From positions 6,079,098 through 6,143,097 of the forward strand of contig CAIIXF020000001.1 of the NCBI GenBank assembly GCA_903813345.2: a DNA stretch of 64,000 nt, written 5' to 3'. Each line of letters begins with the position of its first letter. Position 1 is the stretch's first letter. The notes under the pieces were generated by a model, which worked only from the letters and a program-made list of their open reading frames with translations, made no database searches and was not told the origin of the DNA. Origin of the DNA: Owenia fusiformis. Its lineage: Eukaryota; Annelida; Polychaeta; Sabellida; Oweniidae. The position numbers were made by a program, and so were the translations under genes. Shown piece after piece: positions 193 to 61,900 of this stretch.

Positions 193-3100
193 ATGAATTT
201 GAAACATTTGAAGACACTGCTGCCACCCCAGGTATGTAGTCCACATTTAGAACTATACTTGTTGACTCTGAACTCCTGAGATAATTGTCAAATGGATGAT
301 GAAAACTCTGAACATCCAGTTCATTTTTCATCATTCAATTTTCTTATAATTTTTGAATTTGTCTTTTGAAATTAAAATTTTTTCAAACTCAGGTTTGTTT
401 GTATGAAGTTCTTCCACGAAGTGGGCAGAGCTCTCCGTACATAAGATCGGGTGAAACTTGTTCAAGTGGCCTTACCCCGGGGGTGCACTGTGTATAAACA
501 TTGACTGGGATCCTAGGCGCATAGGGTAGATCTACCTTTTGACAATCGGTATGGCAATGGACCCAAATTTTAGGATCTGGTATGAAAATGCCCTCCAAAA
601 TTATGTGGTGTGGCTTTCGTCTCGTAGCTGCACATATCCTAATTTAAGGTTGTTTTGGATCATTTTCCTCAAAGATCTGCCTTCTGCTTGGGGCCTTCAG
701 TTTGAATTTAACTTTTCTTACATGTGTGGTTTGGCATCTCTAATTGAAAGCCCGTGTCCTATATTTGGACATTTGGTATGGCATTGGTCCTATATTTGGA
801 CATTTGGTATGGCAATGGTCTTATATTTGGATATTTGTTATGGTTTTTGAGCATTAGTCTATTTTGGTTGGTATGGGAACACGTCATAGAAATTTGACAG
901 ATTGGTATGGGAATATATTGATATCTGAGGGTTCAGCCTAGGAACCCCGCTGAATTTTGAATAAACACATAATGTGGGGTTGAATATTCAAATCACCCCA
1001 TAATTACTTGTGTATTGAAATATTATGGTGTTGAAAATAAGCTGAATTATTGGTATAATTATGTAATGACCTTCGATAGCAAGTCGCTACTACAGTCTCA
1101 GCTGTAGTGGCTAGCCCTTATGGCTCAGGGGTAGAGCGTCTGACTCGAGAGCGGGAGGTCCTGGGTTCGATTCCCGTACGGGGCATTGAATTTAGCACAT
1201 TCTCTTTCGAGTCTAGTATCTGGCTCGTTACACCACAGCTCCCCGACGAGCGTGCCCAAGGGTCGTTACAATTAGATAAAATTCAGCTTTCTGTCAGCTA
1301 CTGATAACGACTCACACTTTTTGTCTTCAACCAGTCATGAAAAGATTCTGAAAAAGGACACATCGTCAATGTTATGTTTTGAATGGTGTCAATTTAAATT
1401 GAAAGTATAGATATAAATTGTTTTAGAAAACACATGAGACACTGTCTTTTTCTCCTTGGTACCATATCTTTGGAATGCAATGAAATATATCTATCCAAAC
1501 CTCTTTGGAAAAAATGACATCTTCACAACTCATTTAGGTCTCACAATATTATAAAAACAACGTTTGGATAGATATTTTATTTCAATCTCAAGAATTGGTA
1601 GAAAAGAACAAAATACAATTGTCTATAAATCTATAAAACAAAAACTGTTTATTAAAACAAATATATAAAATATATATAAATAATTTTCATATTAAATTAT
1701 TTTCACCCGGTGACCATTAGTTGTAATTGACAATTTTCATTCTATCATGAATCATCAAATTTTATAACCAAATCAAAAAAGTTATAACAGGATGGGATAA
1801 TAATTTGTCTAATCAAGATGTGAGATTCAGGAAGGGAGAGTATATTATAATATCTTGAACCTTTTCCATTTACTTCAGGAGGGGGCAGCTAAGATTATGG
1901 CAGCAGTATTCTCACCAAATAACCAGAAACTGGCAATATGTACATCAGACAGAGTTATTGTTTTATTTGATGAAAATGGTGAGAAGAGAGACAAGTTTTC
2001 AACCAAGCCAGCAGATGCCAAGGTAAATAAACATTTAAATATAGGTTTCAATTCTTGTTCAGCCAATACCATAACACTGTCATCTTCACTACAATGCACT
2101 TTAAAATCAACATATAGACTAATAGGGGAAATATAAACCAACCATACAAAATAAATAAATCACCTGTATTTTAAACTAAATTGCACGGTTTGAAAGGTTG
2201 AAGATATATAGCCAGATAATGTATTATACTCTGCCTACCTCAATTCATACTTACTTTCAGTATGGAAAGAAGAGCTACATGGTAAAGGGACTGGCATTTT
2301 CTCCTGACTCAACTAAAATTGCTATTGGACAAACAGACAACATCATTTTTGTATACAAGATAGGTGAAGGGTGGTAAGTAACATTATCTTAAATGCATAG
2401 ATTTGATTGCTTGTAAGAGTGAGTGTATAAATGCCATACTGTACAAAATAATATATAACGGTAACAAATAATGCTCATAAAACCCGTAGAGTGGAATGGC
2501 TCCATAAGTTGAACACCTTTCAAAATCCTGCTACCCATAATATAAAGACACAGATCATGGAACACCTCCCAAATAGAACACTATTTTGAGGTTCCAAAGT
2601 AATTTTTCAATGTTTCTGTACATTGTAAAATCTACATTTCTGGTTAAAGTCTTAAGTTTCCTCTCAACTGTACAATATACCAAGCTGTGCTTCATTTCAG
2701 GGGAGAGAAGAAGAGTATATGTAACAAGTTTGTCCAGCAGAGTGCAGTGACAACTCTAATTTGGCCACCTGATAACCAGATAGTATTTGGCACAGCAGAT
2801 GGAAAGGTACATAAGAGAAAAGTTACTATTTTGCAGCATTTGACTCTTGTGTACAACTTCATGCATTAACATTTTTTACACAACAAAATGATATACTTTG
2901 ATGCAATTTTCAACTATGATACAGCTTTTGCTACATAAAAACAGAAAGTTCACTCAATAATAGAACAAAAATTGTTTGAAGGTTTTGTCAATTTTAAAAA
3001 TTTCAATCAGAGTAATATGTCTTTCTAATTCCAACCCTGAATTTATCTTTGAAGACTTATATCAGTGATAATGTATGAATTTGACATTAGAGTTTGACTC

Positions 3101-8598: not shown

Positions 8599-11500
8599 GT
8601 AGGTTTTTTTCTGTATTTTATTATAACTGGGGGCCTTTAGTGGATTATATAAATGTCTTTAAATTCATCAGATGCCACTAGGATAATTATTATAATTAAA
8701 TGATGATTATTTGATAAATCTGCATCCCTACATTGAATTTAACACTACCCTAAACTGATTAGATACTCTATACCAGCCAGCAGGGTGATGTATGCATGTT
8801 ATTGATGTATAATATATAAAATATATATGTGGCAATGTGTAATGGACTGTATTTAACCCCCTAGGTGTTATGCTGCTTTGGGGGATGTATCTAAAGCTCG
8901 ATATCTTAGAGAAACAAACAAAATTGCTGCTGATGCTGCAAAGAATATTGGAGGAGATGGAATGAATCATTACAAAGTATGAATCCTCAATTAGAAATTT
9001 AAATACGATTATTAATAATCTTTATATAATCTTTATTTAAAGAGGCAAATAAATTATACATACATACAATGTTATCCTTGTGATATTATGAAATGTTGAT
9101 AAAAGTTTTGATTTTTTGGCAATAATTTTTGTCAGTTTTGAACCACCTTGATAAATGGAGCTAAGACCTACTTTGAGCAGCTGTGAAAGGACCCAAGTGG
9201 AAATTGAAGACATTACTGATGTGTTGATTAATTTATTGTATTGTAGGTCAGAGCAAGAATGGCTATCATAGAAAAACAATACAAAGAGGCTGAGAGTGTT
9301 TACTTGGAGCAGAATAACATTGATGAGGCCATGGAGATGTACCAGGAACTACACAAGTGGGATGAAGCTATAGAAGTAGCAGAGGCAAAGGTATTGCCAA
9401 TTGCAAAAATCATAATCAAAGGAGTCGTAGCATGTTATTTTTCTTTGTTATCAAAGTGAGTTCAATGATCTAAAGCTGTGTCAGTCCATTGTGTTGACTT
9501 GACCATATGTTTACTTGACGATGTTACCTGGAGTTGAGTTTCGCAAAGGTAGAGTTGCCCTGGGTTGATTTCTTCGAGGGAACACTTAAAACGTATGTCA
9601 GATTTTAGTTGATATAGTGTTAAAGGAGATGAGCAATCCTTTTATCAAGAGTATGTACATCATAGACATTAATCGATTAATTTATTGTAGGGTCACCCAG
9701 AACTTGAGAACCTGAAGAAGAACTATTACCAGTGGCTAATGGAGACAAACCAGGAGGAGGCTGCAGGGGAAATGAAGGAGAAGGAGGGAGATTACATGGC
9801 AGCACTGGCCCTTTATATGAAAGCAGGGCTGCCTGCTAGGGCTGCAAGGCTGGCAACTAGTAGAGATGAACTCATATCAAACAAAGACATCGTCAGCAGG
9901 ATTGCCAATGCTCTCATCAAGGGAGAGTTCTTTGAAAGGGTAAGACAGGAATTACCTCAAAAATGAATGCTTGCCAAGAACAGTATCTCCCTTCCGAACC
10001 CCTTGACTATATCGACGGGTGCTGTAGTTCTTGTACTGTTATTCTGTAGAAATTTATTGATGTTTGATAATAACCTGTAGAGACAGACTAAAATTATTTT
10101 AGCAAGTTCCTGGAACATTATTTGTATTGAGTATGTTACATTCCTAGCCTATCATCTAACATATAGAAAATGTAATCTTTGCATATTTCCCTTGTTCTCA
10201 CAGGCTGGTGATCTATTTGAGAAGATACGTGATCACAAATATGCCCTGGATTGCTACAGGAAGGGCCAGGCTTATAGGAGGGCTGTGGAGCTGGCCAGGT
10301 ATGCCTTCCCTGAGGATGTAGTGAAATTAGAAGAGGAGTGGGGAGATCATCTTGTGGCACAGAAACAATTGGATGCAGCTATTAACCATTACATTGAGGC
10401 AGGGTAAGATAATAAAGTTAGAATTAATCTTCCTTGAAATAATGGAGAGCTTATGCGATGTATCCTGTATTCCTTGCATGAAAATCAGTTCACCAATAAC
10501 TTGTCAATGTTGATATAATTTTCAACTGATGATGTAGGGCCATTAAATGGACATCTTGTTTCTATGATTAAGGGCTACCATGAAAGCAGTGGAAGCAGCT
10601 ATCAACTCCAGACAATGGCATAAAGCTGTCCAGATCCTAGAGGTGGTTGGTGATGCCAGTATTGCCTCACGTTACTACATCAAGATTGCTAAGCATTATG
10701 CCTCTATTGGAGAATATGAGGTAAGATTTTACTATAGATGGTATCCACTTAATTTATGGATGTAGGTGAGAAAACTGTATAAACCTCATTCGCTATTATA
10801 ATCAAAATCTGTAAAGCAAACTACATGTGTAAACAATTAGCAGGTATGAGATAAGAATACATATATTAAGTTAGGTGATTAGTGAAACTTCTGTTAATAT
10901 TGGCTTCAACTTTAAGTCTTACTATCTCTGTAGAAATCTCCCTATCTGCTCCCACAACCATCTTATCACATTATCAGTGCCTCACACTGTATGGTGGGGG
11001 GTATTTGAGAGTACTTTTACCTTATACCTTTTTTACCTTATACAGACTGCAGAGAGGTTCTTTGTGGAGGCTGACTACACTAAGGAGGCAATAGAGATGT
11101 ACAATGCTGCAGGCAAATGGGAGGATGCACACAGACTGGCTGCTACATGTATGAAACAGGAAGATGTGGCTGCTCTATATATCCAACAGGCACAGGAATT
11201 AGAGACACAGGGACGATACAAGGAGGCTGAGAGGTAGGGGTTCACATGGAATCTACTACTATATATCAACTTTATAAGTCTATTTAATAAGAAATTCCAC
11301 AACCTCTGAACACATGGGTTCAGACATCATCTTTGGGAATATGTATACACCTATTTTGTTGATAAAAAGGAAGGAACAGAGTGGATCCAGGGGAGTGGAT
11401 TTTGTCTACATCCTGCCATTTGGAAGATGAAATATCTGAATTATTTTAAATATATTCTTAAATATACTCATTCCCTATACTCATTTCCCAAATCATTGTT

Positions 11501-14500
11501 TTGGTATTACAGATTACCTGGATTTCATGCTCAGGCACAGACCATCTACCCTGTTCATTGTCTTCACATAGGCTATAATTAAGAAATATAGACCCAAGAG
11601 CAGGGGTAATATTGTTGAATACACCCTGCAGGGCTAGGCACAAACGTTTTCTGTACCCCAAACGACCAAAGGGAGTGAGGAGTTCGAAAGCTTTTGTGCC
11701 TAGCCCTAAGGCGTGTATTCGACGATATTATACCTGCTCTGAGGTCTATATTACGATTCGAACATGAAAACTCACCAAAATGTTTCGAATATTCATTATG
11801 GTCTGCTATAACTACGGCCCGCCGTTATGACGTCACACATTACACGTATTACCAGGGGTTTTGTTCGCGAATATACCCCGGGTGAAATGTTGACTTTGTT
11901 TACAGTATGTAGAAGGCGTGAATACAGTCATGTTCGAATATCCTTCAATATATAATATATCTATATCCTATAGATATATTATACTTATAGGTTGTATGTG
12001 ACAGTTGAAGAGCCTGACCTGGCTATTACAATGTACAAGAAGGTGCGCATGTACAATGACATGGTGCGCCTTGTGAAAACATACCACAAGGAACTCCTAC
12101 AAGACACTCACATGCATCTTGCTGCGGTAAACACTCTTTTATTTGAAATTTATTGAAATGTTACCATTAAAGGGTATATGAAATCATCACAAGAAAGCCA
12201 CAATTAAATTAAATTTATTATTTGCTTAAATATTGTCAGTTCGTTTTTTTTGTTCATCAAATGAAATATTAAGGATATGGTAAAAAAGTAACAAATGAAT
12301 TGATGTTACTTTGCATCGGTTTAAAGAATGTTACCAAGATTGCAATTAGTCTAAATAATGTATTTATTTAGTTTACTTTCCTAAGTTTTTGAATATTATA
12401 AACCACTCTCCTATACAGGGAACAGTTGCATATATGTAAAAAGGTACCATATTTGGCATTGGGAAAGTCAGAGGATTTTGTCCAAGCTGATACACTCAGA
12501 GGAGTAATTACTAATCATGTTATAAATACTGCTTATAACATTTGAATAACGTCTTATTTCCTCACTGTAGGAGCTTCAAAATGAGAACAATCTCCGGCAG
12601 GCTGAACATCACTACATTGAGGCCAAGAACTGGAAGGAAGCAGTTAATATGTACAGAAACAATGACAGCTGGGATGAGTCATATAGGGTAACAGATATCT
12701 CACCCCCTCCCTATGTACTGCTTGTAAACGTGTCACCCCCTGCTTATGTACTGCTTATAACCCCAATTCTTTTCACTCCCATGAACTGCTTCTAAAGCTC
12801 ATGTTTCAACCTCCCATGATCTGTTTGTAATCCCATTCTTTTCAATCCCCATGCTTCTAAAACTCATGTGTCACCCTCCCATGATCTGTTTGTAATCCCA
12901 TTCTTTTCATTCCCCATGCTTCTAACACTCATGTGTCAACCTCCCATGAACTGCTTGTAATCCCATTCTTTTCATTCCCCATGCTTCTAACACTCATGTG
13001 TCACTCTCCGATGAACTGCTTGTAATCCCATTCTTTTCACTCCCCATGTACACCTTTCATCTCAGAATGCCTCCTTGTCCTTCTGCCTGTCTCATCTCTT
13101 CTTTCTTTTATACTTTTATACTTATAACAGGATTTCTGCAACCAGGGATGCACCTACATTGTGTATTACTACTAACCTAATCATTCTTAATGCCACTATG
13201 GTCATGCTTGTTCCTTTCTATTACTATGTTTTGTCATATCTATAAAATATGATGAAAAGCACAGGATTACTGATAAAAATCACAGAAACAGAAAATGTTT
13301 CCCATTATCCAAACGTGTTTCATATATCTGAAAAACAATTTATTCCATGTGCCCCAGATATTATTTTATTCGATGCTTTTCAATCTTTTCCTCTCTTATA
13401 TGCAAGCATGGTCACCGTGACATTGCACCTCACAATACCCTCTAGCTCAAGCCAATGCTTCTATTGGTTAAAAACTACAGTGTATATAGCTGTTCTAGGA
13501 ATATCAAAGGGTAGGCATGTATCGCAAGGCTGAGGAAAGTCATCTATTGGCTGAACGTTTGGGTAGCTGTATAGCTATGTATCATGAAGCAGATATGTGG
13601 GAGGATGCATATAGGGTATACATTGAATATAGCACACACAGGTTGAGACATGTCAGCCTAAGAACTGACCCTCCCACGTTATATAGTGGAGGCATGTCTT
13701 CAATGTGGAGTGATCCTTTAGCTAATCCACTATAATTATTTTAATTCTTTTATTGTTGTAAATCTTACAAAAATTGTGTTTGTGGGAATATATTCCATTG
13801 TTTGACCTTATGGGTTGGGGTTACACCTAATATTTGCCCACATATCATTAATTACATTGTTCATTTTATTTAAAATGTTGATTTTTTTATTTAGTCTCAC
13901 ATCAAATATCTGGTTTCCTCTCCATCATATATTTTTCCGACCTTGTAAGAATGAGGGAAAATACAGTAGCCTTATGCAAGACTCAGTATTCATTCTATTT
14001 CTATATAATTAGAACAGTAATTCTTTTATAAATGCAAACAAATAAACAGAAAGGAATTTAAATAAATTAATGCATAATATGTGAAAAATTCATTACAAAT
14101 TTGTAAGGGTAAAATTAATTTTATTTTTTATTCTTTTATGTGATTTTATAATGTGTATTCAGTTGATATGATATATCGGCATGGAAATGCTAAAATTCTC
14201 TTTGTTGTAGGTGGCTAAGGCCCATGGGGGACCCAATGCTGCCAAGCAGGTGGCCTACCTTTGGGCAAAGAGTCTTGGAGGGGACTCAGCTGTGAAACTT
14301 CTCACAAAGTTTGGTCTTTTGGAGGCAGCTATAGATTATGCATCAGAGAACTGGTAAAGTATTTAAAATTGACAACATTGATTTGAAAATAAATTTGATT
14401 GCCTATTATTGCAAATTATTACAGCTTAATCCAGATGTGTTTTACAGGTCACCCTATCAAAATGATTGTGATATTTTATTATTGATGTGGTCTGTTTCAG

Positions 14501-17500
14501 TGCATTTGACTTTGCATTTGAGCTGTCAAGGACTGCCATGAAGAACAAGATGCCAGACATCCATCTGAAGTATGCCATGTTTCTTGAGGATGATGGCAAA
14601 TTCCCTGAGGCTGAGCAACAGTTCATCAAAGCAAATAAACCCAAGGAGGCAGTTCTCATGTAAGATATATTGAACAATATATGGTTAGGGTTGATGATGT
14701 TGTTTATTTTAGAATTCAAGTTTGTTTACATGATTATCAGAGAGAATATGCAAACAAAACACTTCGATGAAATATTCATCTGATAAGTTTTAACCCCATT
14801 TCAATGAAATAAACCTATTGATTAAAATATTCATCTGTAGGTATGTCCATAACCAAGACTGGGACTCTGCTGGGAGGGTGGCAGAGGAGCATGATCCTGA
14901 CTCTATTAAGGATGTACTAGTAGGTCAGGCCAGAGTGGCATTTGAGGCTAAGGAATATCAGAAGGCAGAGTCTTACCTACTAAGAGCTCAGAGACCTGAT
15001 GCTGCTGTAAAATATTATAAGGTATGGAATATAGTACTATTGATAGGGCTTAAATTGTAATCATATTAATTTTGATTAAAAATATTTTCTTCTATTCAAG
15101 GTTCAGAAAACTTTTAATATTTCTTAATTTTGGACCCTAATCTATCATTGAATCTGCAATTGATGAAATTAATGTCTACGTTATGTAGCAAATAACATTC
15201 AAGATACTAGGAGACTGAACACAATAGCACCCCTTAGCAAATCGCTCCCATAATCTGTATCTAGTGATTTCAATTCTGGGCTTTTGGACCAAATATCTGT
15301 TTTGTGTTGGTCAGGAAGCAGACATGTGGCAGGATGCCCTTCGTGTTTGCAAGGAATATCTTCCCCACAAACTTCAGCAGCTGCAGGATGACTATGACAG
15401 AGAGATGATGGATAAAACTACAAGGTTAGTTTATTCTACATTTTGTAGGTAATTCTGCTGTATAGATAGTAGTTGTGGTTGCCATGGTGATCACACTACT
15501 TGTTGAATGAAAAGGAGAGTATGAAAATATGAAATATGTTCATTTTGAAAGATTTCCTTGTGATATTTACGTGAAATGTTTATTGAAAAAATCACATAGT
15601 TTAACAAGCAGAATTTGTGATTCCATAGTGCTGCAGATTATATGAAAAGAGTAAATTGTAACATTTTGTTTTCTTATAATTATAGAGGGGCTGACAGTTT
15701 GGTACAACAAGCCAGAGAGTGGGAGTCTTCTGGAGAGTATGCCAGAGCAGTGGACTGTTATGTAAAAGTTACACCTAAACACACATCTGACAACAACCTA
15801 CTGCAGAAATGTTGGGTGAAGGTAAGCGGAACTGATCCAGATTTGTGAATCTATTTGTCCAAAAGCACAGTCTATAATATAATTATCTCATAATGTGGAT
15901 CTGCAAAATGTCTGCATTATAAATTCAAAAGAATTTTCACCTCATCAACTGATTGCATCAACTGTTGCCTTACCCTGCCTGTATATACATTCAGTTTCCA
16001 AACCAAGCTCAGTTGGGTGTAATGTTATCTGATCATTCTGTTTTAGGCTGGTGAGCTATCTCTCAAGTTCCTGACTCATGACAAAGGAGAGGCTGTGGTA
16101 CAGATTGTGGGACCAAGACTTGTTGAGATAGGAAAATATACAGCTGTATGTATTTATTAACCATTGCATATAAATAAATAGTGGCATTTTGTCATATAGC
16201 ACCAAGGGGATTTTAGTTACTAAAACCTTCATCCAATGTTTTAGTTAGATTTTATGTGACTAACCATCATAGAAGAATTTACTGCATTTTAGGCAGCAGA
16301 GCTTTACCTCAGAGTTGACATGATAAAAGAAGCTATTGATGCCTTTATTGATGGGGAAGAATGGAATAAAGCAAAGAAAGTTGCCAAAGAATTGGAACCA
16401 AGGTAACTTTTTAAGAAAATATGTCTGTTCTAGTGTACGTATGAAATGGCTTTATGAGTATTGGTGTACCATTATTGGATGTAGCATTTTACTGTGCTAT
16501 TTATTTAAGTTAAGGTTGATGGAGTAGAATGATGTCTAATTTATGATTTATCCTTTCATGGCCACTTATATTTTTAACTCGGTAACTTGACATTGGGCTG
16601 TTTATGTGTCTCTGGCAGTTTATTCAGAAATAAACTTGGATTCCTTGACTTAATGTTATAGATGGCATGGCTATATATGTGTAACCTTGCATATTCATTA
16701 GGGTCTCAAGTTATTGCATTGAAAGGCCACCATGGAAATATTTCACATATAAATATAAATATTGTATATTGTATTTCAGATATGAGGCATATGTTGATGA
16801 AAAGCACACAAGGCATCTGAAACAACAGGGAAATGTAGATGGGGTGAGTCATGGTTGCCTAGTACACAATCAGTACTTCAGTTTATTGAAATGGTTAAAT
16901 ACTGTCACTATTATTGAAAATAAAGAAATATGTATAAGTTCTAGGATTGGACTCCAAATGATAGTAAAAGACCTGTATTACTGGCAATTCACACACCAAA
17001 ATTAAGGTGCTGCATCAGCGCAAATGTAAATAAAAGTTTCACTATGAAAGCAAGCAGAGTTCTAGTTTGCACTGTGTGCATATATAACAAGAGAAGCCCT
17101 TGAGGAGGTTTCTTACCATTTTGGAGACATCTTTCATCTGTACTTCACCTTCACCGTTTTTACATATATTTCAGATTATTGCCAAGGATGTTGTTGCTGG
17201 GCTTGATATCTATGTGGAGAAGGGAGAATGGGAGAAATGTATTGAAATTGCTGAACAACAAAGCTCTAAAGTTCTCGACAAATATGTTGCCTTGTATTCA
17301 ACACATCTCATTAAAGAAAACAAGGTTATTAAGGCGATGGATCTGTTTGTTAAACACGGGGCTCCTGCCCATCCACAGGTATGCACTAGAAATCTGATTG
17401 ATACATCAACACTTTAGACTCCATCTATTATCCATCTGAAGAACAGCTCATAGAACAACTCATACTGTAGATATATGTAGCATTTATACACAAAATTGGC

Positions 17501-26221: not shown

Positions 26222-26971
26222 GTCAATACAAATTCAGTGTGTGGTGACGCGACGTCAGAACTGATGTTCGCGTTGGTGGAAGTCTAGCACAAAGTTTCAT
26301 TGAAAATATGTTCTACTTTTAGTGATTTCATGTCTTATAGACGATTTTGTAGAAAACATTTTGCAATGTGTGAAAAGAATTTAGTCCAAGACTTAATGCA
26401 TTGCGTAATTGTCCACTCCGTTCAAGCGTTGTTTCATAAATGATCACTCGATGCTTCGCATCTCGTGCAAATGTTGGAAAGCAACACATTCAAGGAATGG
26501 TCATTTTACAGTGCACTGAGTCCAGGGCTTAAATCCTTAATTAAAGAATTGAATTATTGATAATCCTTCGTACACAACCAACACTGTTCCATCAGCAATG
26601 ATGAACATATATTTGAAATTAAATGTTGCTCAAATTCATGAAGTTTTGATATACATTTCTACTTTTAATATCCTATGTGGTTTACTATTCGACCAATATG
26701 GTACCTAGTTATTTGAATAATTTGAAAGCATACTTCAACTTAATAGTCACTCTGTATTCATTAGACATCACACATCTTGCGTTATAACATTAAACATCTT
26801 GCGCTATAAGTGACACTTGTAATGGAAATCAATGTAGAAAATTCAGGATTAACTAGATTCATCCCGTACTTTTAATGCTGACACTAAACTCGAAGAAACT
26901 GGGAGCGTAAAATACCAAGCTAAGTTGGTTAGGATCCAAACTTGGACCATACCAGGCACAGGTTAAATATA

Positions 26972-28639
26972 ATGCCTGCAGATGACGAGAATGAAGAAAA
27001 ACCAAAAGAGAATAATTCTGGAAACGCTCGGAGCATTTTATCTAACTTTGCCTCCTCGACAACTGCGCATGGCTGTTCTCAGATCAATCAGTCCCAATCC
27101 TCCGTCGCTAAATGTGTGTGGCTCCTCATCTTCATTGGATGCACCATCGGGGCGATCATTTGTATCACTGCTCTCCTTCAGAAGTATTTTGCGTTTCCAA
27201 CAAAGGATGTAATTGTTTTAAAAACAGGGGCCATCGCGGCACCCTCAATCAGTGTATGTAGCCTTAATCCGATTCCATCATCATTCAGGACGAGATTGAG
27301 TGGAATTGCACCAGACAACAAAGTTAATACAGTTCTGCGAGCATTGGATCTAGCGTCGGAGCGTGTCGCGAACACATCTTTCGGTTTACATGAGAAGCTG
27401 TCAGAATCATACCTAAGATTGAACTCTTACATATGGATCTATGAAAACGCACCGGGTGAAAACGAAACGTTGCAGTTTGCACATGAATTGGACGACCTCG
27501 TCGTGTCGTGTATGTACCAGGGCATCCCCTGTGACAAGTCAACAGTAAAGATTTTCACCAACCCTTACTTTTATAAATGCTACACATTCAACGCAATGGA
27601 TTACAATGATACATACAATGGACCCTTTATCCATTCTACCGGTACTAAAAGTGGGATCAGTATGTTATTTTTTCTAGACACACACGACTCAGGGGAGACA
27701 CTTTATAACCCGTATTGTCCCCTTGGAGGCAACACGGGTGTACGTGTGGTAATACATCAGCCTGGTACAATACCAGATCCCTTCAATGACGGTTTTGATG
27801 TTGCTCCGGGTTATTCAACCAATGTCGGAATAACGAAAAGGAAACGGGAGCTACTTGGGCGACCCTGGGGAGACTGTGAGAGACGAGAGAAACTCGATGA
27901 TGGGTTGCCGTTCTTATATGACAGGCGGTCTTGTAAGCTCCTTTGTCTACAGGCATTTGTCGCTGAAAGATGCGGATGTGTCACATCTTATCTACCCATA
28001 TCAGAAAATATGAAAAACATTACTCGATGCGGCCAAATGGATTTGGAAAATTTTAATTCTGCGTCTCCTAACTTGACGACTCTAGAACATGAGTTGGACA
28101 GGTTAAGTTGTGAATTGAAATCGGTTTACGTCATACTTGACGATCAAGATGATGTTGACTGTGATTGCCCACAAAGCTGCGAACGTGATATTTATGACTA
28201 CACACTGTCCCAGTCCGAGTGGCCCTCCGGAGGTGTTCAATTACATTTTTACCGACATATTGCCCACCTAAAAGGAGAGGCCTATTTCAACTCTTCTATG
28301 TATCACCTTTTGGATGACAAAGTAAACACAAACGACAGCATGGTTAACATGAAGAACCAGAGAATGATCCAACAGAACTTTTTACGCGTCAATACATTTT
28401 TCACTTCAATGGACACAGAAATTGTTAAACAGGTTGAGGAATATCCATTTACTGATATGATATCAGGTGTGGGTGGAGGGTTTGGTGTCTACGTAGGTTT
28501 CTCCATTGTCACTATGTGTGAGTTTTGTGTGCTGTTTGTGCATCTCCTACGAGCGATGATAATGGACAGAGAGAAGCGCAAAGTTAAGTCAGCTGAATTA
28601 CATTCGAGTAAGGTAATTCCAACAAAAACGGCATGGTGA
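26972..28639 (+). CDS. DEG/ENaC-family sodium channel subunit, intronless
   Basis: 555 residues in a single exon. Members form trimeric, usually amiloride-sensitive, sodium channels in the plasma membrane, gated by peptides, protons or mechanical force. Family marks seen: His-Gly gating motif at residues 33-34 (TTAHGCSQ); first membrane segment at about 48-72; the post-TM1 motif FP with PSISVC; a large Cys-rich extracellular domain; the signature CDCPQSC at about 397-403 followed by Y and S-x-x-x-WPS; the second membrane segment preceded by GVGGGFGVYVG; and the selectivity-filter-type GFS at 509-511. The C-tail is short and basic. I chose the ATG at 26972 because there is no upstream in-frame ATG before the TAG at 26930. 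AATAAA lies only 3 nt after the stop (28643). The lack of introns next to intron-rich neighbours suggests a retrocopy or an ancestrally intron-poor member. The ligand cannot be told from sequence. Confidence 0.93.
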   Translation: MPADDENEEKPKENNSGNARSILSNFASSTTAHGCSQINQSQSSVAKCVWLLIFIGCTIGAIICITALLQKYFAFPTKDVIVLKTGAIAAPSISVCSLNPIPSSFRTRLSGIAPDNKVNTVLRALDLASERVANTSFGLHEKLSESYLRLNSYIWIYENAPGENETLQFAHELDDLVVSCMYQGIPCDKSTVKIFTNPYFYKCYTFNAMDYNDTYNGPFIHSTGTKSGISMLFFLDTHDSGETLYNPYCPLGGNTGVRVVIHQPGTIPDPFNDGFDVAPGYSTNVGITKRKRELLGRPWGDCERREKLDDGLPFLYDRRSCKLLCLQAFVAERCGCVTSYLPISENMKNITRCGQMDLENFNSASPNLTTLEHELDRLSCELKSVYVILDDQDDVDCDCPQSCERDIYDYTLSQSEWPSGGVQLHFYRHIAHLKGEAYFNSSMYHLLDDKVNTNDSMVNMKNQRMIQQNFLRVNTFFTSMDTEIVKQVEEYPFTDMISGVGGGFGVYVGFSIVTMCEFCVLFVHLLRAMIMDREKRKVKSAELHSSKVIPTKTAW

Positions 28640-45511: not shown

Positions 45512-48500
45512 CTAAATATTGACAAAGAGGCAATTGAGTTAGTTTGATTCGGAATATATACAGAAATCGGTCAAATTGGTATGGCTTGTGTGATTTGTTT
45601 GTTCTCAGCTAGACAGAATATTGTAAATGGTTAAAGTCACCTCGGTTTCCTCAATACAGGATGATGTGTCCAAGCAGGAATATTGGGCAAACTGACAAAT
45701 AGATGTATTGGAAGAATTAGTTGATAGAGTATCTTCATCTGTTGCAGTCGCAGTACCTTCATTTGTAGTTGTCAAACTACCTCCATTTGTTGATGTCACT
45801 GTACCTTCATTTGTAGCAGTCGAAGTACGTTCATTTGTAGACGTCGCAGAACCATTATCCGTAGCTGTCAAACCACTTATTTCTGTTGATGTTATAGCAC
45901 TACCATCTGTAGTTGTGGTAGTACCTTCATTTGTAGTTATTTTAGTTCCTTCATCTGTTGTCGTCATTGTAACGTCATCTGTCGTAACACCATCATTTGT
46001 AGCTGTTAATGTTATTTTATTTGGAGCTGTCGTAGTAGCTTCTTCTGTTGTCAATATTGTACTTTCATCTGTTGTCGTCGTTACACCATCATTTGTAGTC
46101 ATAGGTATAGTATCATTTTTAGTTGTCATAGTACCTTCATATGAAGATGTTGTTGATAAAAAGCCGCCATCTAGAGTAGTACTAGTACCATCAATTGTTG
46201 TCACAATGGTGCTTACAACTGGAAGTAACTCAACTGTCATAATTATATAACATTAACACAGCATTGATAAATTAGCAATTATTACACTGAATATGATATT
46301 TTGGCACAGCAAAATATTACATCGATTAATGAATCTATGTATCAATTGTAATTATTTCTAGTGAAATGAGAAATATATAGTTGTAATATAGTTTCTTCAT
46401 TGTTGTTCTCATAGAACCTTCATTGTACTTGTACATTTATCATCAGTTTACATGAATATCATCCTACCATACAATGATGTTCATCAACGTGATTGTTCGT
46501 TTTTTCTTATTGCCTATTTATACAATATGAAGACATTGACATATTCAAGGAAACGATATTTACATATTGTGTAAAATCATGTTATGGATAATTGTAAATA
46601 TATGTTTATTAAAATCGCTTACTCGGACATACATCTGTGTTGCAGTCATCACTTTCTGTTTCACTTAACTGACGAGTTTCTCCATCAGCAGCCAAACAAG
46701 CATCTCCACCATGATCAGGTGCTGGATTGTCACATGACCTAGAACGTGTCTTTGTACCTCCGCCGCACGTGCTAGAGCAGGAACCGAATTCTGACCATTC
46801 ACTCCATCCTCCATTGACTGTTTTGAAAACAAACATCATAAATGAATGGCATTGATAATATTTTTAATTATATAAATTATATTTACATGCATCTCGCTTT
46901 TGAAAACCTCTTATGGTTAATTTTGAATATATGTTAATCGCTTACTCGGACATTCATCTGTGTTGCAGTCATCACTTTCTGTTTCACTTGACTGACGAGT
47001 TTCCCCATCAGCAGCCAAACAAGCATCTCCACCATGATCAGGTGCTGGAGTGTCGCATGACCTAGAACGTGTCTTTGTACCTCCACCGCAAGTGGTAGAG
47101 CAGGAACCAAATGCTGACCAGTCACTCCATGCTCCATCGACTGTTTTGAAAACAAACATCATAAATGAATGGCATTGATAATATTTTTAATTATATAAAT
47201 TATATTTACATGCATCTCGCTTTTGAAAACCTCTTATGGTTAATTTTGAATATATGTTAATCGCTTACTCGGACATTCATCTGTGTTGCAGTCATCACTT
47301 TCTGTTTCACTTAACTGATGAGTTTCCCCATCAGCAGCCAAACAAGCATCTCCACCATGATCAGGTGCTGGATTGTCACATGACCTAGAACGTGTCTTTG
47401 TACCTCCGCCGCACGTGCTAGAGCAGGAACCGAATTCTGACCATTCATTCCATCCTCCGTTGACTGTTTTGAAAATAAATATCATATATGACCAGTATTG
47501 ATCATATTTAAAAGAGATATCCTCCCAACCGCCGTTAACTGGACATAGCCAATAATCATGATAGTCAGTCTACAGGGTGGGCCAATAAAAATTGGAACAT
47601 TTTTCTATTTGTTTAATAGTCTCTATTTTTGCAGTTAAATCCGCATTTAACATTTTCACAAATAATTATTTTACCATTATCTGAATATTTGTGGGCTGAA
47701 CTGCAATAATAAAGAAAAGTGAATGATTAGAAAAATGTTCCAATTTCTATTGGCCCACCCTGTAATGAAGAAAAATGCGATATTTAGTAAAGATTCAAAG
47801 AACATCAAATTTCCTACGATCTTTGTACATATGATACAACTATTTCGACAGTTTATCAACACCGGAATTTAATCGAAAAATATGGAAATGTTTGACCAAT
47901 CTGTATCTAGAAATTTTACAGGCATCAAGAAGACGCCAACCGATTATTCAATTCTGATATTCAGATATCCTTCTTTCTTGCAACATTGTGTTCGGAGGGA
48001 CCGATGGAAACCCGTTATATCTTAGGACTGGGGTTATTCAAGCTCAGACATTACAGGGGCGTAGCTGGGGATTTAGGCAACTAGACGCCAATAACATATG
48101 AATGAAAATTTGGTTTGAATTTGCTCTAAAACACTTCCTTATTACCTCCCCTCCCCCATATTAATCCTTGTTTCTCATGACTCCGTACCCGTAACTCTTT
48201 ATTTTTACGAGTACATCTGTTTTCATCATTTTCATCATATTATTGATAGAATTCAATAAAATTGTCAAACTCATTATTACTAACTTGTAAGCTTTTAAAA
48301 TGTATGCAAATGAACTGACACTTTTTATACCTGGCATAGTTTTCCAATTACATCTAGTTGTTATGAACTAACATGATGGTTGATACTCATGGGTTTATTT
48401 CTCGAAATTTTGTAAATTTATTAGTTAGTCTATTGTTGTTTGTTTAAAACTTGTATTTCTTGAAAGTTAGTAACTGCGAAAATTAGTAACTTTTTCGCAT

Positions 48501-55961: not shown

Positions 55962-58900
55962 CTAAATATTGACAAAGAGGCAAATTGAGTTAGTTGATTT
56001 GGAATACAGCTGAAATTCTAAATCTCTTTGCATACTGATATATAACCTGGAAATGGAGATACTTCATTGCGTATACGTCCAATAGTTCCAATTATCTTTA
56101 AACATAAAGAATGCAAATCCACAGTTAAGAAATGGGTTAGTCACCTCGGTTTCCTCAATACAGGACGATGTGTCCAAACAGGAATATTGGCCAAACTGAC
56201 AAGTAGATGTATTGGTTGTTGCAACAGTATCATCTGTCGCCGTCGTAGTGCCTTCATTTGTAGCTGCAACAGAACCTTTATCTGTTGACGGCACAATAAG
56301 TTCATATGTAGATGTCGACGTACCTTTATATGTAGACGTCGCAGAACTATTATTTGTAGCTATCAGAATACCTGTATGTGTCGACGTCACAGTATCTTCA
56401 TCTGTAGGTTTTATAATACCGCCATCTGTAGTTGTAATAGTACCTTCATTTGTAGTTATTTGAGTTCCTTCATCTGTCATCATTGTAACTTCGTCTGTCG
56501 TCATCATAACGTCATCATTTGTAGCTGTCATAGTATATTCATTGGTAGTTGTCAATGTTTCTTCATTTGAAGCTGTTATAGTGACTTCTTCTGTTGTCAA
56601 GATTGTACTTTCATCACGTGTAGCTGTCATAGTATTGGTAGTTGTCAATGTTTCTTCATTTGAAGCTGTTATAGTGACTTCTTCTGTTGTCAACATTGTA
56701 CTTTCATCACGTGTAGCTGTCATAGTATTGGTAGTTGTCAATGTTTCTTCATTTGAAGCTGTTATAGTGACTTCTTCTGTTGTCAACATTGTACTTTCAT
56801 CACGTGTAGCTGTCATAGTATTGGTAGTTGTCAATGTTTCTTCGTTTCGAGCTGTTATACTGACTTCTGTCGTCAACATTGCACTTTCATCCGTCGTTGT
56901 CATAACACCATCATCTGTATTTGTCATTGTAACTTCATTTGAAGGCGTAAGTGCACCCTCTGATGTTGTTGACACAACGCCAACATATAGAGTCGTTGTT
57001 GTATCCTCAATTGTGGTCGCCATAGTGCCCCCATCTGGAAGTTGTTCAACTGTCTTAATTGCATAATATTAACACAGCACTGTTAAGAAACCAATTGTGA
57101 CACTGAATATGATCTTTTGTCAAAGCAAAATGCTTTGAATCTACAGGGTCTCAAAAATGAACTCAGTATCAACAGCACAGATAAACCAGTCAATATGGTC
57201 AGACATTTTACGTGATCATGTATAAAGCATGTACGCTTTCTCCCCAATACAACGTTTCTAGTCCAGCCTTGCCTTTTAATTGATATAACCCTTTTTACAC
57301 CACATGATCAATGTAACCTCCTCTTATTTCGATGACAGCCTGGATTCTTACTGCCACATTGTTCATCACATTTGTTAATGTCTCCGGTGCAGTGTTTTGA
57401 ATTTCTCTTCACATGTTTGCCTTAAGTTGTTCTATGTCTCTTAGCTTGGGATGAGCATAAACATGGTTCTTCAAGAAGTTCCAGATAAAACGTCCTGAGT
57501 GTCAAATCTTTTGAATAGGAACTTAGGAAGGTCCTCACAATGTATTTATACTGAGAGATCAGACGTTCAAGAACATGCGTTCATAGGAATTCTCGTGTGG
57601 CCATTGCTGTGATTAGAGGGGTTCAATCTTTTCGAACCCTGTGTTCTCATTTGAATATTATTCGGTGTTCGAGCTAGCCTGTGTAACTCCGGAATCATTT
57701 GAAGATAATTGACCTGATTCTCTGTGATTGTTCCGCCGCCGTCATCTTTGAACGGCTATTTGACGGAGCAAAAAGTCCAACATCCGAAAAGAACTTTGAA
57801 GCATTCCACCAGAAACATTATCAAATGTGACAAACAATTTAACAGAAAGGATGTAGGCTATCCTCGAAATATTAAATAAAAACTTAACTTTATATTGGGG
57901 AGAAAACGTACGTGCTACAGCTATATGCCATAACATATTGAGTGTTTTTTCTCAAATGACTAACAAAGATACAACCATGTTCAAAAAGCACAGTCTTTGA
58001 CTCGATAAAGAAGAATTATTAAAGCTCATCAAGAATGGACGATCTTGCACATGTACTCAAACAAGAAACTGTCTATATATGCTGTTGCTCATTGTGGTAG
58101 TTAATGTTAACTGAAACATTCACATTGATGTTGGAATGTAATTCATTATTTGGACATTTCAAACATGCATCATTGAATGATAGCCACATTGCTCAAATAG
58201 TTACATTCTTTGCCGGTCGAATAATCATTTTATATCTTTAGACTAATTATGATCTTTGAATTATAATTAAGCCGGTGTAAAAGGGTGGGAGGTCCTATCA
58301 AATTGTGGTCCTACTCTCCATTGATTTATCTGGTGACCTCAATACAACTCTTTTCCTCATTATCTTATAAGAAAGTGGACCATTATCCCTGGGGGACCAT
58401 CATTTCTTTCACATCGGCGACACTGCACTTTTTCCGATACCTTTAACGCAATTTAAAAATGTATCATTGATTTTGAACGATGGCCAAACGATTTGTGCTT
58501 TTCTCACCCGGACATTCATCTGTGTTGCACTCATCATTTTCTGTTTCACTTAGCTGACGAGTTTCCCCATCAGCAGCCAAACAAGCATCTCCACCATGGT
58601 CAGGTGCAGGAGTGTCACATGACCTAGAACGTGTCTTTGTACCTCCACCGCACGTGGTAGAGCAGGAACCAAAGGCTGACCATTCACTCCATCCTCCATT
58701 GACTGTTTTGAAAACATCATGAGCAAAATATGTTGATCTTCAGGCCCGTGGCCAGAATTTTCCAAAGGGGGGGGGGTTCACTTTTCCAAAAATTCTAAGG
58801 GGGGTTCACTTTGGCAAATTTGGCCAAAAATCACTCAAAAAATAGTAAGAATGGTGAAAAACTGCATGATTTTGAAAAAAAATTTGGCCAGGGGGGGGGG

Positions 58901-61900
58901 GTTCACCAGAACCCCCCTTGGCTACGGGCCTGTTCTTTGTGATTGTTAGGTTTTCATTATTACCTATTCACAATGCGAAAACATTTGCATATTCAAGGAA
59001 ACGATACATGCATTTCGTTTTCAAGATCATGTTATGGATAACTGAAAATAGAAATAAAAGTTGCTTACTTGGACATTCGTCTGTGTTGCAGTCATCACTT
59101 TCTGTTTCACTTAACTGACGAGTTTCCCCATCAGCAGCCAAACAAGCATCTCCACCATGATCAGGTGCTGGATTGTCACATAACCTAGAACGTGTCTTTG
59201 TACCTCCACCACACGTGTTAGTGCAAGAGCCAAATGCTGACCAGTCACTCCATGCTCCATCGACTGTTTTGAAAACAAACATCATAAATGAATGGCATTG
59301 ATAATATTTTGTTATATAAATTATATTTACAAAAATGCTGAACAATCAACCGATCCTTTGTTGACTGTTTTGGAAAGAAACTTCAGAAATGAATAGAGTA
59401 AATCATCTTTTTAATTGCTTCGTTCTATTATTTAATCTATTTAAAACTATTCGAGGGGTGATCAATAAGTAATGGACGTTTTTTACACATATACTTCTAT
59501 AGACCAATCCCTTTGATTTTCCTACCAGTGATACATTATTCAATTATCTATCAATTACTCAGATGCGAGTATGTAGTTACCAGTTTCGCCACCAGGTGGC
59601 TGATTCGGGGGAATTAACATAGCAGGGTATTACAAAAGTCCCTTAAACTTGAATATGCATCAGTTTTAGTGGTTCACTTTTCATATTACCATTATGTATC
59701 TAATAGTTATACAAATTAAAGAAAATATTATCTGCTCTACATAAGAAAAAATAGTTCACTTTTTGTGGTTTTACAACATGGGGTCTATGGGGAATCTCCC
59801 CGACCTAGAAGTCACATTTTCAAAGAAAATTAAATTTTCAGAGTTGATTAGCTCTTTTCAAAACCACATTTCTAAATGTAATTTTACATGTACATTCCAA
59901 ATATGACATCAGTTTGACTGAATTGTGAATTTTTATGACGTAAATCAAGATTATTTCTACTCGCATCTGGGACATTCTGAAATTTTGAAGACAAAATATA
60001 TAATACATGTTGATATATCCTTATTTCCGTGAAGGAGGTACAGGTACCCCGGGGCCGACATTTACGTCACATATTCAGATTTTAGCCAGTTTGGTAAATT
60101 TCAGTTAGATTTGAACTTTTTATATGCAACAAGTGTTGTGTTGTTTGAATTTTTTTGCTGACTGGTAACACATAAACAGAAAGTATTGTGATGTCAGAGT
60201 GTTGTATGGAAGGGGTTTGCAGGTCAATTTGAGAAAGCATTTTGGAAGAAAGGGGTGGTGAGAAAAGGAAACACTCTACTCCATATGGACAATGCACCTG
60301 CCCACAGATCTCAAAATGTTCAGAAAACAATATCCCTGGACCTCAAAATTGAGCCCTTGGCCAATGCACCATATTGTCCATATCTGCTCACATGTGACTT
60401 GTTTATTTCTATACTACTTATTTCTATAGAGAAAGGACGCAGGTTTATTGCTATTGATGAAATAAAACAACCTGTGCAACTGCATCTTGCTACCATGTCA
60501 GAGAATGGCTTCAGCCTTGTCTCACAATCTTGAGTTAAGAGGATGAGGAATTGTGTACATGTAGCACTTGATGGAACCTATTTAGAGGGCCCTGTGAAAT
60601 GAATGTGGCATGAATACCACATAGTGATGATAAAATATTCAAAATCAACTATGGCATAACAAAATGGGGTAATTCATGACCATAATGGTTTGTTTTGTTC
60701 AGCCTGTATTCAACTGCATTGCATGTTAAACAAAAAACGGAGACCATAACAATATGTCACCACTTTTGGTGGTGACATAATAAGCTAAAATAGCTTCAGA
60801 ATATGTGACGTAAATGTCGGTCCCGGGGTACCAGTACCTCCTTCACGGAAATAAGGATATATCAACATGTATTATATATTTTGTTTCCAAATCTTCAGAG
60901 TTGATAGATAATTGAATGATGTATCACTGGTAAGAAAATCTAAGGGATTGGTCTATTAAAAGCATATGAGTAAAAAAGTGTCCATTACTTATTGATCACC
61001 CCTCGTACATTGACATATTTAAGGAAACGATACATACATTTCGCTTTTGAAAACCTCTTCTGGATAATTTTGAATATTTGTTAATTAAAATCGCTTACTC
61101 GGACATTCATCTGTGTTGCAGTCATCACTTTCTGTTTCACTTAACTGACGAGTTTCTCCATCAGCAGCCAAACAAGTATCTCCACCATGATCAGGGGCTG
61201 GATTGTCACATGACCTAGAACGTGTCTTTGTACCTCCACCGCACGTGTTAGAGCAGGAACCGAATTCTGACCATTCACTCCATCCTCCACTGACTGTTTT
61301 GAAAACAAACATGATAAATGAATAGTATTGATACCTATTCACAATGCGAAAACATTTGCATATTCAAGGAAACGATACATGCATTTCGTTTTCAAGATCA
61401 TGTTATGGATAACTAAAAATAGAAATAAAAGTTGCTTACTTGGACATTCGTCTGTGTTGCAGTCATCACTTTCTGTTTCACTTAACTGACGAGTTTCCCC
61501 ATCAGCAGCCAAACAAGCATCTCCACCATGATCAGGTGCTGGATTGTCACATAACCTAGAACGTGTCTTTGTACCTCCACCACACGTGTTAGTGCAAGAG
61601 CCAAATGCTGACCAGTCACTCCATGCTCCATCGACTGTTTTGAAAACAAACATCATAAATGAATGGCATTGATAATATTTTGTTATATAAATAAATTTAC
61701 AAAAATGCTGAGCAATCACTCGATCCTTCGTTGACTGTTTTGGAAAGAAACATCAGAAATTAATAGAGTGAATCATCATTTTAATTGATTCGTTCTATTA
61801 TTTAATCTATTTAAAACTATACATTGACATATTTGAGGAAACGATACATACATTTCCCTTTTGAAAACCTCTTATGGATACTTTTGAATATATGTTTATC

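Follow-up and report, generated by a model that had tools for sequence, protein, structure and literature searches.

A candidate second version of a TPR-repeat exon in the IFT172 gene of Owenia fusiformis

Introduction

IFT172 is usually regarded as an invariant part of the IFT-B core. The window examined here (i.e., a stretch of 64,000 nucleotides from the annelid Owenia fusiformis) carries an IFT172 gene on its plus strand, and a preliminary description of this stretch had proposed that one TPR exon of the gene, exon 22, possesses an interchangeable second version, exon 22b, located in the intron that follows it. The locus raises the question of whether 22b is a coding exon at all and, if so, whether it replaces exon 22, is added to it, or has recently fallen out of use. 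In anterograde trains, the TPR arm of IFT172 wraps the IFT-B2 edge, the TPRs of neighbouring IFT172 molecules form the trench that seats the microtubule-binding domain of dynein-2, and the far end of the arm reaches IFT-A (as described in passages of PMC10191852).

Results

Gene model and candidate exon

On the basis of frame and splice borders, 32 internal IFT172 exons were placed in the window; the list leaves out exon 1, the last exons and an exon that should lie between 2807 and 3580. The exons joined from 9247 to 16843 yielded a stop-free translation. Exon 22 (12571–12687) contains 39 codons in phase 0-0 and is the canonical repeat exon, its alignment with Chlamydomonas IFT172 (PDB 8bd7 chain S) being gap-free. 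Its splice partners are exon 21 (11991–12126, with the donor at 12126/12127) upstream and exon 23 (14211–14353) downstream. In the intron preceding exon 21, two arms of 67 nt (11585–11651 and 11686–11752) that are 82% complementary and 34 nt apart form a fold-back resembling a small inverted-repeat element.

Candidate exon 22b (13499–13615, plus strand) lies in the 1523-base intron that separates exon 22 from exon 23. As the preliminary description had stated, 22b and exon 22 are each 117 bp long, start and end at codon borders (phase 0-0) and share 12 of 39 identical residues, while the 39 codons of 22b are free of stops. Both are flanked by AG and GT, and an in-frame TAG ends at 13498, directly before 22b. 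Among the 10,871 intron bases outside 22b, 12 stretches of AG-117 nt-GT were found, one of which was open in phase 0; taken alone, the length and frame of 22b would be less remarkable than the repeat score given below. GC content was uninformative as an exon mark (0.44 in 22b vs. 0.42 in the preceding 100 bases). The intron between exons 22 and 22b (811 bp) holds a pyrimidine-rich minisatellite of 4.6 copies of a 65-bp tandem repeat (12746–13048, plus strand), which could carry splicing-repressor sites.

Searches of the 498-Mb assembly, at the DNA and protein level alike, returned a single match for 22b, and a single match was likewise obtained for each of its flanks. An exon borne by a transposon was rejected on these counts (from a search that skips very common words). 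No second IFT172 locus was seen, and outside the gene itself these searches gave one weak match (C3; E-value of 0.43, four stops).

Evidence for a repeat-coding exon

When scored against a repeat profile built from seven IFT172 repeats of the same gene, 22b reached 53.6, compared to 62.3–77.1 for the seven repeats, each within its own profile. Among 11,638 further open windows of 117 nt, drawn from either strand but excluding 22b and the 32 listed IFT172 exons, the highest score was 7.9 (mean of –37.6, standard deviation of 9.2; these windows overlap, and their number overstates the independent ones), and the score of 22b rules out a chance open frame. Averaged over the seven real repeats, 22b scored 53.6, which falls within the range of the repeats among themselves (39.8–54.8). 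Moreover, when the joined IFT172 protein was searched against the exon-masked window, 22b was recovered with an E-value of 6.6e-7 and the next match elsewhere had an E-value of 1.0; this search of the masked window returned no other exon remnant with a better value.

Neutral decay was simulated from two sources, i.e., exon 22 and the repeat most similar to 22b, the first part of which lies in exon 25 (14841–15021, plus strand) and the second in exon 26 (15315–15424, plus strand), each under one assumed neutral composition. After drift to the observed identity, none of the 2000 runs from either source reached the score of 22b, and against the other repeats the runs averaged only –11 (from exon 22) or –7 (from the 25/26 repeat), so that an old neutral fossil keeping the repeat pattern of 22b was rejected. 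The preliminary description had likewise argued that 22b is no old dead copy, and this conclusion is upheld by the drift simulations, but its reasoning that such a copy should show stops is not: since 12% (from exon 22) and 14% (from the 25/26 repeat) of the 2000 neutral runs remained stop-free, the absence of stops is weak evidence. The 39-codon register of 22b is the same as that of exon 22 and contains no indel; such an absence of indels would be expected in a fraction of 0.003 (exon 22) or 0.01 (25/26 repeat) of drifts at 0.1 indels per substitution, a figure that depends on the assumed ratios (0.05–0.15).

Codon use was scored with a model based on those exons, 25 of the 32, for which the frame had been found automatically, with exon 22 kept out of the training and two intervals excluded from the intron set. 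The log-odds per codon were 0.55 for 22b and 0.58 for exon 22, and none of 648 open (and overlapping) intronic windows of 117 nt matched the score of 22b (best of 0.22). Over the 39 bases following 13615, the score was –0.26. Among 4095 open intronic windows this value ranks at the 64th percentile, and each of the 907 in-frame exonic 39-nt windows scored higher. Since codon use turns intron-like after 13615, the coding signal stops at the proposed donor.

An alignment of eight repeats (i.e., 22b, two more from the window and five from a ciliate contig) contained three invariant positions. Of two scans of collections without animal genomes, one yielded a single protist contig and the other no match. 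This contig, JAQTXT010000136.1, is filed under a Rickettsiales MAG and shows a 1162-residue IFT172 frame only if TAA and TAG both encode Gln; because the frame needs this reading, the contig is probably ciliate contamination. With the eight-repeat alignment, AlphaFold2 predicted three helices in near-identical places in 22b and exon 22, with a mean pLDDT of 78.5 and 76.5, respectively; such short models say only that both sequences fit a helical repeat.

Collectively, these data support 22b as a TPR-type repeat exon of IFT172 whose frame has been kept by selection, and most likely it is either a live coding exon or one that was recently lost. That it is live, whether it replaces exon 22 or is added to it, appears probable.

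Splice sites

Splice sites were scored with a PWM and ranked among the 32 others of the gene, with intronic GTs and AGs as decoys that may include a few real sites, the exon list being incomplete. The 22b donor scored 5.65, with 7 of the 32 other donors scoring lower and 41 of 930 intronic GTs scoring at least as high. Its acceptor scored 3.84, with lower scores for 5 of the 32 other acceptors (one of which is misplaced at 17187 instead of 17175, in a matrix that was not rebuilt) and scores at least as high for 87 of 740 intronic AGs. Exon 22 scored 6.59 at its acceptor and 5.34 at its donor, placing the donors of both exons in the lower part of the range of the gene.

Two further AGs precede the 22b acceptor, i.e., at 13479–13480 (18 bases upstream, with a PWM score of 1.50 for an exon start at 13481) and at 13488–13489 (9 bases upstream, with a score of –9.1 for an exon start at 13490). 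Use of either would lead into an in-frame stop (TGT ATA TAG from the AG at 13480 and CTG TTC TAG from the AG at 13489). At the 32 other acceptors, the nearest upstream AG is never closer than 15 bases. The preliminary description had called these splice sites good, which overstates their quality: AG and GT are present and the donor is ordinary, but the acceptor is mediocre and closely preceded by these AGs.

The GCATG motif, which is linked to RBFOX, was chosen after the sequence had been viewed. Three of its four occurrences in 12127–14210 (at 13406, 13515 and 13692) lie inside 22b or within 100 bases of it, and this cluster is a lead only towards a splicing-factor site.

Proposed exclusion of exon 22 by 22b and fit to the protein

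Among frame, a short intron and RNA structure, no device was found that would enforce a choice between exon 22 and 22b. Because both lengths are multiples of three, joint inclusion or joint skipping would keep the frame, and the 811-bp intron between them is long enough for splicing. RNA pairing among the three introns did not rise above that in shuffles (2, 8 and 18 of 25 were equally strong), and a competing RNA structure was rejected for lack of any such excess. Regulation of the choice by proteins is possible. The earlier proposal of a mutually exclusive or optional exon pair is only partly borne out: the equal length and phase and the open frame agree with it, and kinship with exon 22 is allowed but unproven (p-AU of 0.37, see below), but none of these devices that would impose exclusion was detected.

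In the context of the protein, the score of Pfam model PF24762 was 86.7 with the canonical exon 22, 77.1 when 22b was swapped in, 77.8 with both exons and 82.6 with neither. For PF23774, the corresponding scores were 94.6, 86.1, 93.8 and 79.2. These broad profiles show no preference for a swap of exon 22 by 22b, and 22b alone matched no Pfam model at an E-value of 1.

Kinship of 22b

The single sequence closest to 22b is the exon 25/26 repeat, which matches 13520–13654 at 21 of 45 residues without a gap. This match spans the junction of exons 25 and 26 without an intron and passes the 22b donor by 13 codons (13616–13654, plus strand), 5 of which agree with the continuation in exon 26. The score of this extension was reached by 3 of 857 intronic GT starts, that of 22b itself being among the three. 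In addition, 25 of the 45 third codon positions differ between 22b and the 25/26 repeat, whereas the 21 repeat pairs compared all differ at more (26–36).

These features at first made a strong case for a recent, spliced copy of exons 25/26 inserted in the intron, in which the 22b donor would merely be a valine codon of the copy. That explanation was weakened by cross-species scores, drift, codon use and the tree, and now appears very improbable. More specifically, against the 25/26 repeat 22b scores 70 in its own genome but drops to 45 in Chlamydomonas and 20 in the ciliate, whereas against the exon 22 repeat its score is maintained (64, 63 and 53, respectively). Furthermore, 22b fits the other repeats at least as well as the 25/26 repeat itself does (50.8 vs. 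47.2), which was achieved by none of 2000 drifts from the 25/26 repeat, and the codons beyond the donor are intron-like. In a tree of 17 repeats and 39 columns, in which the five clade tests were picked with the pairwise results already in hand, grouping 22b with the 25/26 repeat of its own genome was weakly rejected (p-AU of 0.02), but grouping it with the 25/26 repeats of all three species was not (p-AU of 0.18).

Nor did these tests reject a grouping of 22b with exon 22 (p-AU of 0.37), with the exon 22 repeats from all three species (0.37), or with the 19/20 repeats (0.25). The 19/20 repeat is identical to 22b at 15 of 39 residues, i.e., more than the 12 of 39 of exon 22, and 22b scored 73 and 56 to it in the cross-species comparison. 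Kinship with exon 22 in particular is allowed by the tree but unproven, and thirty-nine columns cannot settle the parentage of 22b. Between the flanks of exon 22 and those of 22b, any similarity is no greater than in shuffled sequence (as good in 33 and 75 of 300 shuffles), and a tandem duplication, if it gave rise to 22b, would therefore be old.

Other features of the window

Elsewhere in the window, an uninterrupted, apparently intronless ORF of 565 codons at 26942–28639 encodes an ASC-family amiloride-sensitive sodium channel (PF00858, E-value of 4.4e-77). On the minus strand, two ORFs with a thrombospondin type 1 domain (58968–59345 and 61339–61719; the PF00090 scan was run on the former) are near-identical for most of their length and point to a TSP1 exon that was recently duplicated locally, together with its flanking sequence. 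Two long, threonine-rich and mucin-like repetitive ORFs (45605–46240 and 56064–57023), also on the minus strand, have a similar end, and the one at 56064–57023 had no Pfam match.

Discussion

The reading that we favour, at a probability of roughly one in two, is that 22b is a genuine coding exon for an alternative version of a TPR-solenoid repeat, most likely replacing exon 22. Exon 21 would then be spliced to 22b and 22b to exon 23, in place of exon 22. Since its acceptor is the stronger one (6.59 vs. 3.84), exon 22 would likely be the default, and because the acceptor of 22b is weak, 22b might be a regulated, minor choice; the low-ranking donors of both exons would fit such a pairing as well. 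The 22b product would keep the same repeat geometry while presenting a largely different surface across 39 residues midway along the TPR arm. Such a swap would keep the length of the arm and alter its surface, and an addition would lengthen it by 39 residues. The sequence itself shows the homology of 22b to the repeats, its open frame, phase and register, an intact repeat pattern and exon-like codon use up to the donor; from these we infer its splicing, its mutual exclusion with exon 22, its regulation, and any change in contacts with cargo, dynein-2 or IFT-A.

Among the alternatives to replacement, a real 22b that is added to exon 22, either as a cassette or constitutively, would contribute 39 extra solenoid residues. 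All evidence for a preserved coding exon (i.e., drift, codon use and repeat score) applies equally to such an addition, which also keeps the frame and leaves the PF23774 score with both exons (93.8) near the canonical 94.6. Nevertheless, we consider it rather unlikely, given that the PF24762 score falls from 86.7 to 77.8 when both exons are present, that neither Chlamydomonas nor the ciliate has an extra repeat between the sequences of exons 22 and 23, and that a constitutive exon of the IFT172 gene would not normally be expected to have an acceptor this weak. Likewise unlikely is that 22b worked for most of its history but died recently and now goes unspliced. The signs of past selection are equally compatible with this, and the AGs 9 and 18 bases upstream, which set this acceptor apart from the 32 others, look as if the site were decaying; on the other hand, stops and indels are absent so far, and codon use and repeat pattern are intact. 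Explanations beyond these and the inserted 25/26 copy receive next to no weight.

Should 22b indeed replace exon 22, its consequences would concern the extended TPR arm, which runs along IFT-B2, contributes to the dynein-2 trench and ends at IFT-A (according to parts of PMC10191852, PMC13290226 and PMC11349379). Exon 22 corresponds to residues 1044–1082 of Chlamydomonas IFT172 (counted on the alignment). These residues are covered by the IFT172 968-C fragment studied for IFT-A binding, and the predicted IFT-A contact lies farther along, at 1604–1669 (both from sections of PMC13290226). It is plausible, though somewhat less likely than not, that there are two IFT172 proteins differing in one whole mid-arm TPR repeat and chosen by splicing in different ciliated cells, which would give two structural kinds of IFT-B train. 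If true, a splice-chosen repeat would offer a direct and testable route to trains that differ in composition between cilia.

In Chlamydomonas IFT172 (PDB 8bd7, 8ruy), which has the same TPR arm and a gap-free exon 22 repeat, a single repeat occupies the place of exon 22 and the protein has no counterpart of 22b. Predictions of mutually exclusive exons have relied on homologous exons in neighbouring introns, with similar length and the same frame (as outlined in portions of PMC5740500), and the substitutions of human tandem duplicated exons keep the main structural residues (from excerpts of PMC9741552). Exons 22 and 22b resemble these systems, as far as those portions and excerpts describe them, in being neighbours of equal length and phase, with no in-frame stop and with key structural positions kept; they differ in that only 12 of 39 residues are identical, that 22b has a closer relative in a different repeat of the protein, and that exclusive use is so far a proposal here. 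The main text of PMC9741552 does not contain the word IFT, nor does that of PMC5740500 contain IFT172, and among the titles and abstract openings listed by searches of open-licence PMC papers there was no report of alternative IFT172 repeat exons.

Vertebrate ciliary genes also contain photoreceptor-specific cassette exons, such as exon 2A of Ttc8/Bbs8, where a widely expressed ciliary gene obtains a cell-type version by splicing, much as proposed for IFT172 (Ttc8/Bbs8 as presented in parts of PMC4991804). Unlike 22b as we read it, exons of the Ttc8/Bbs8 type are additions that are included in vertebrate photoreceptors and skipped elsewhere, and 22b, unlike exon 2A, is a repeat-length homologue of its neighbouring exon and is known here from DNA (with the same parts of PMC4991804 as reference). 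Homologous alternative exons are of a known kind, and it is their probable occurrence in IFT172 that is unexpected.
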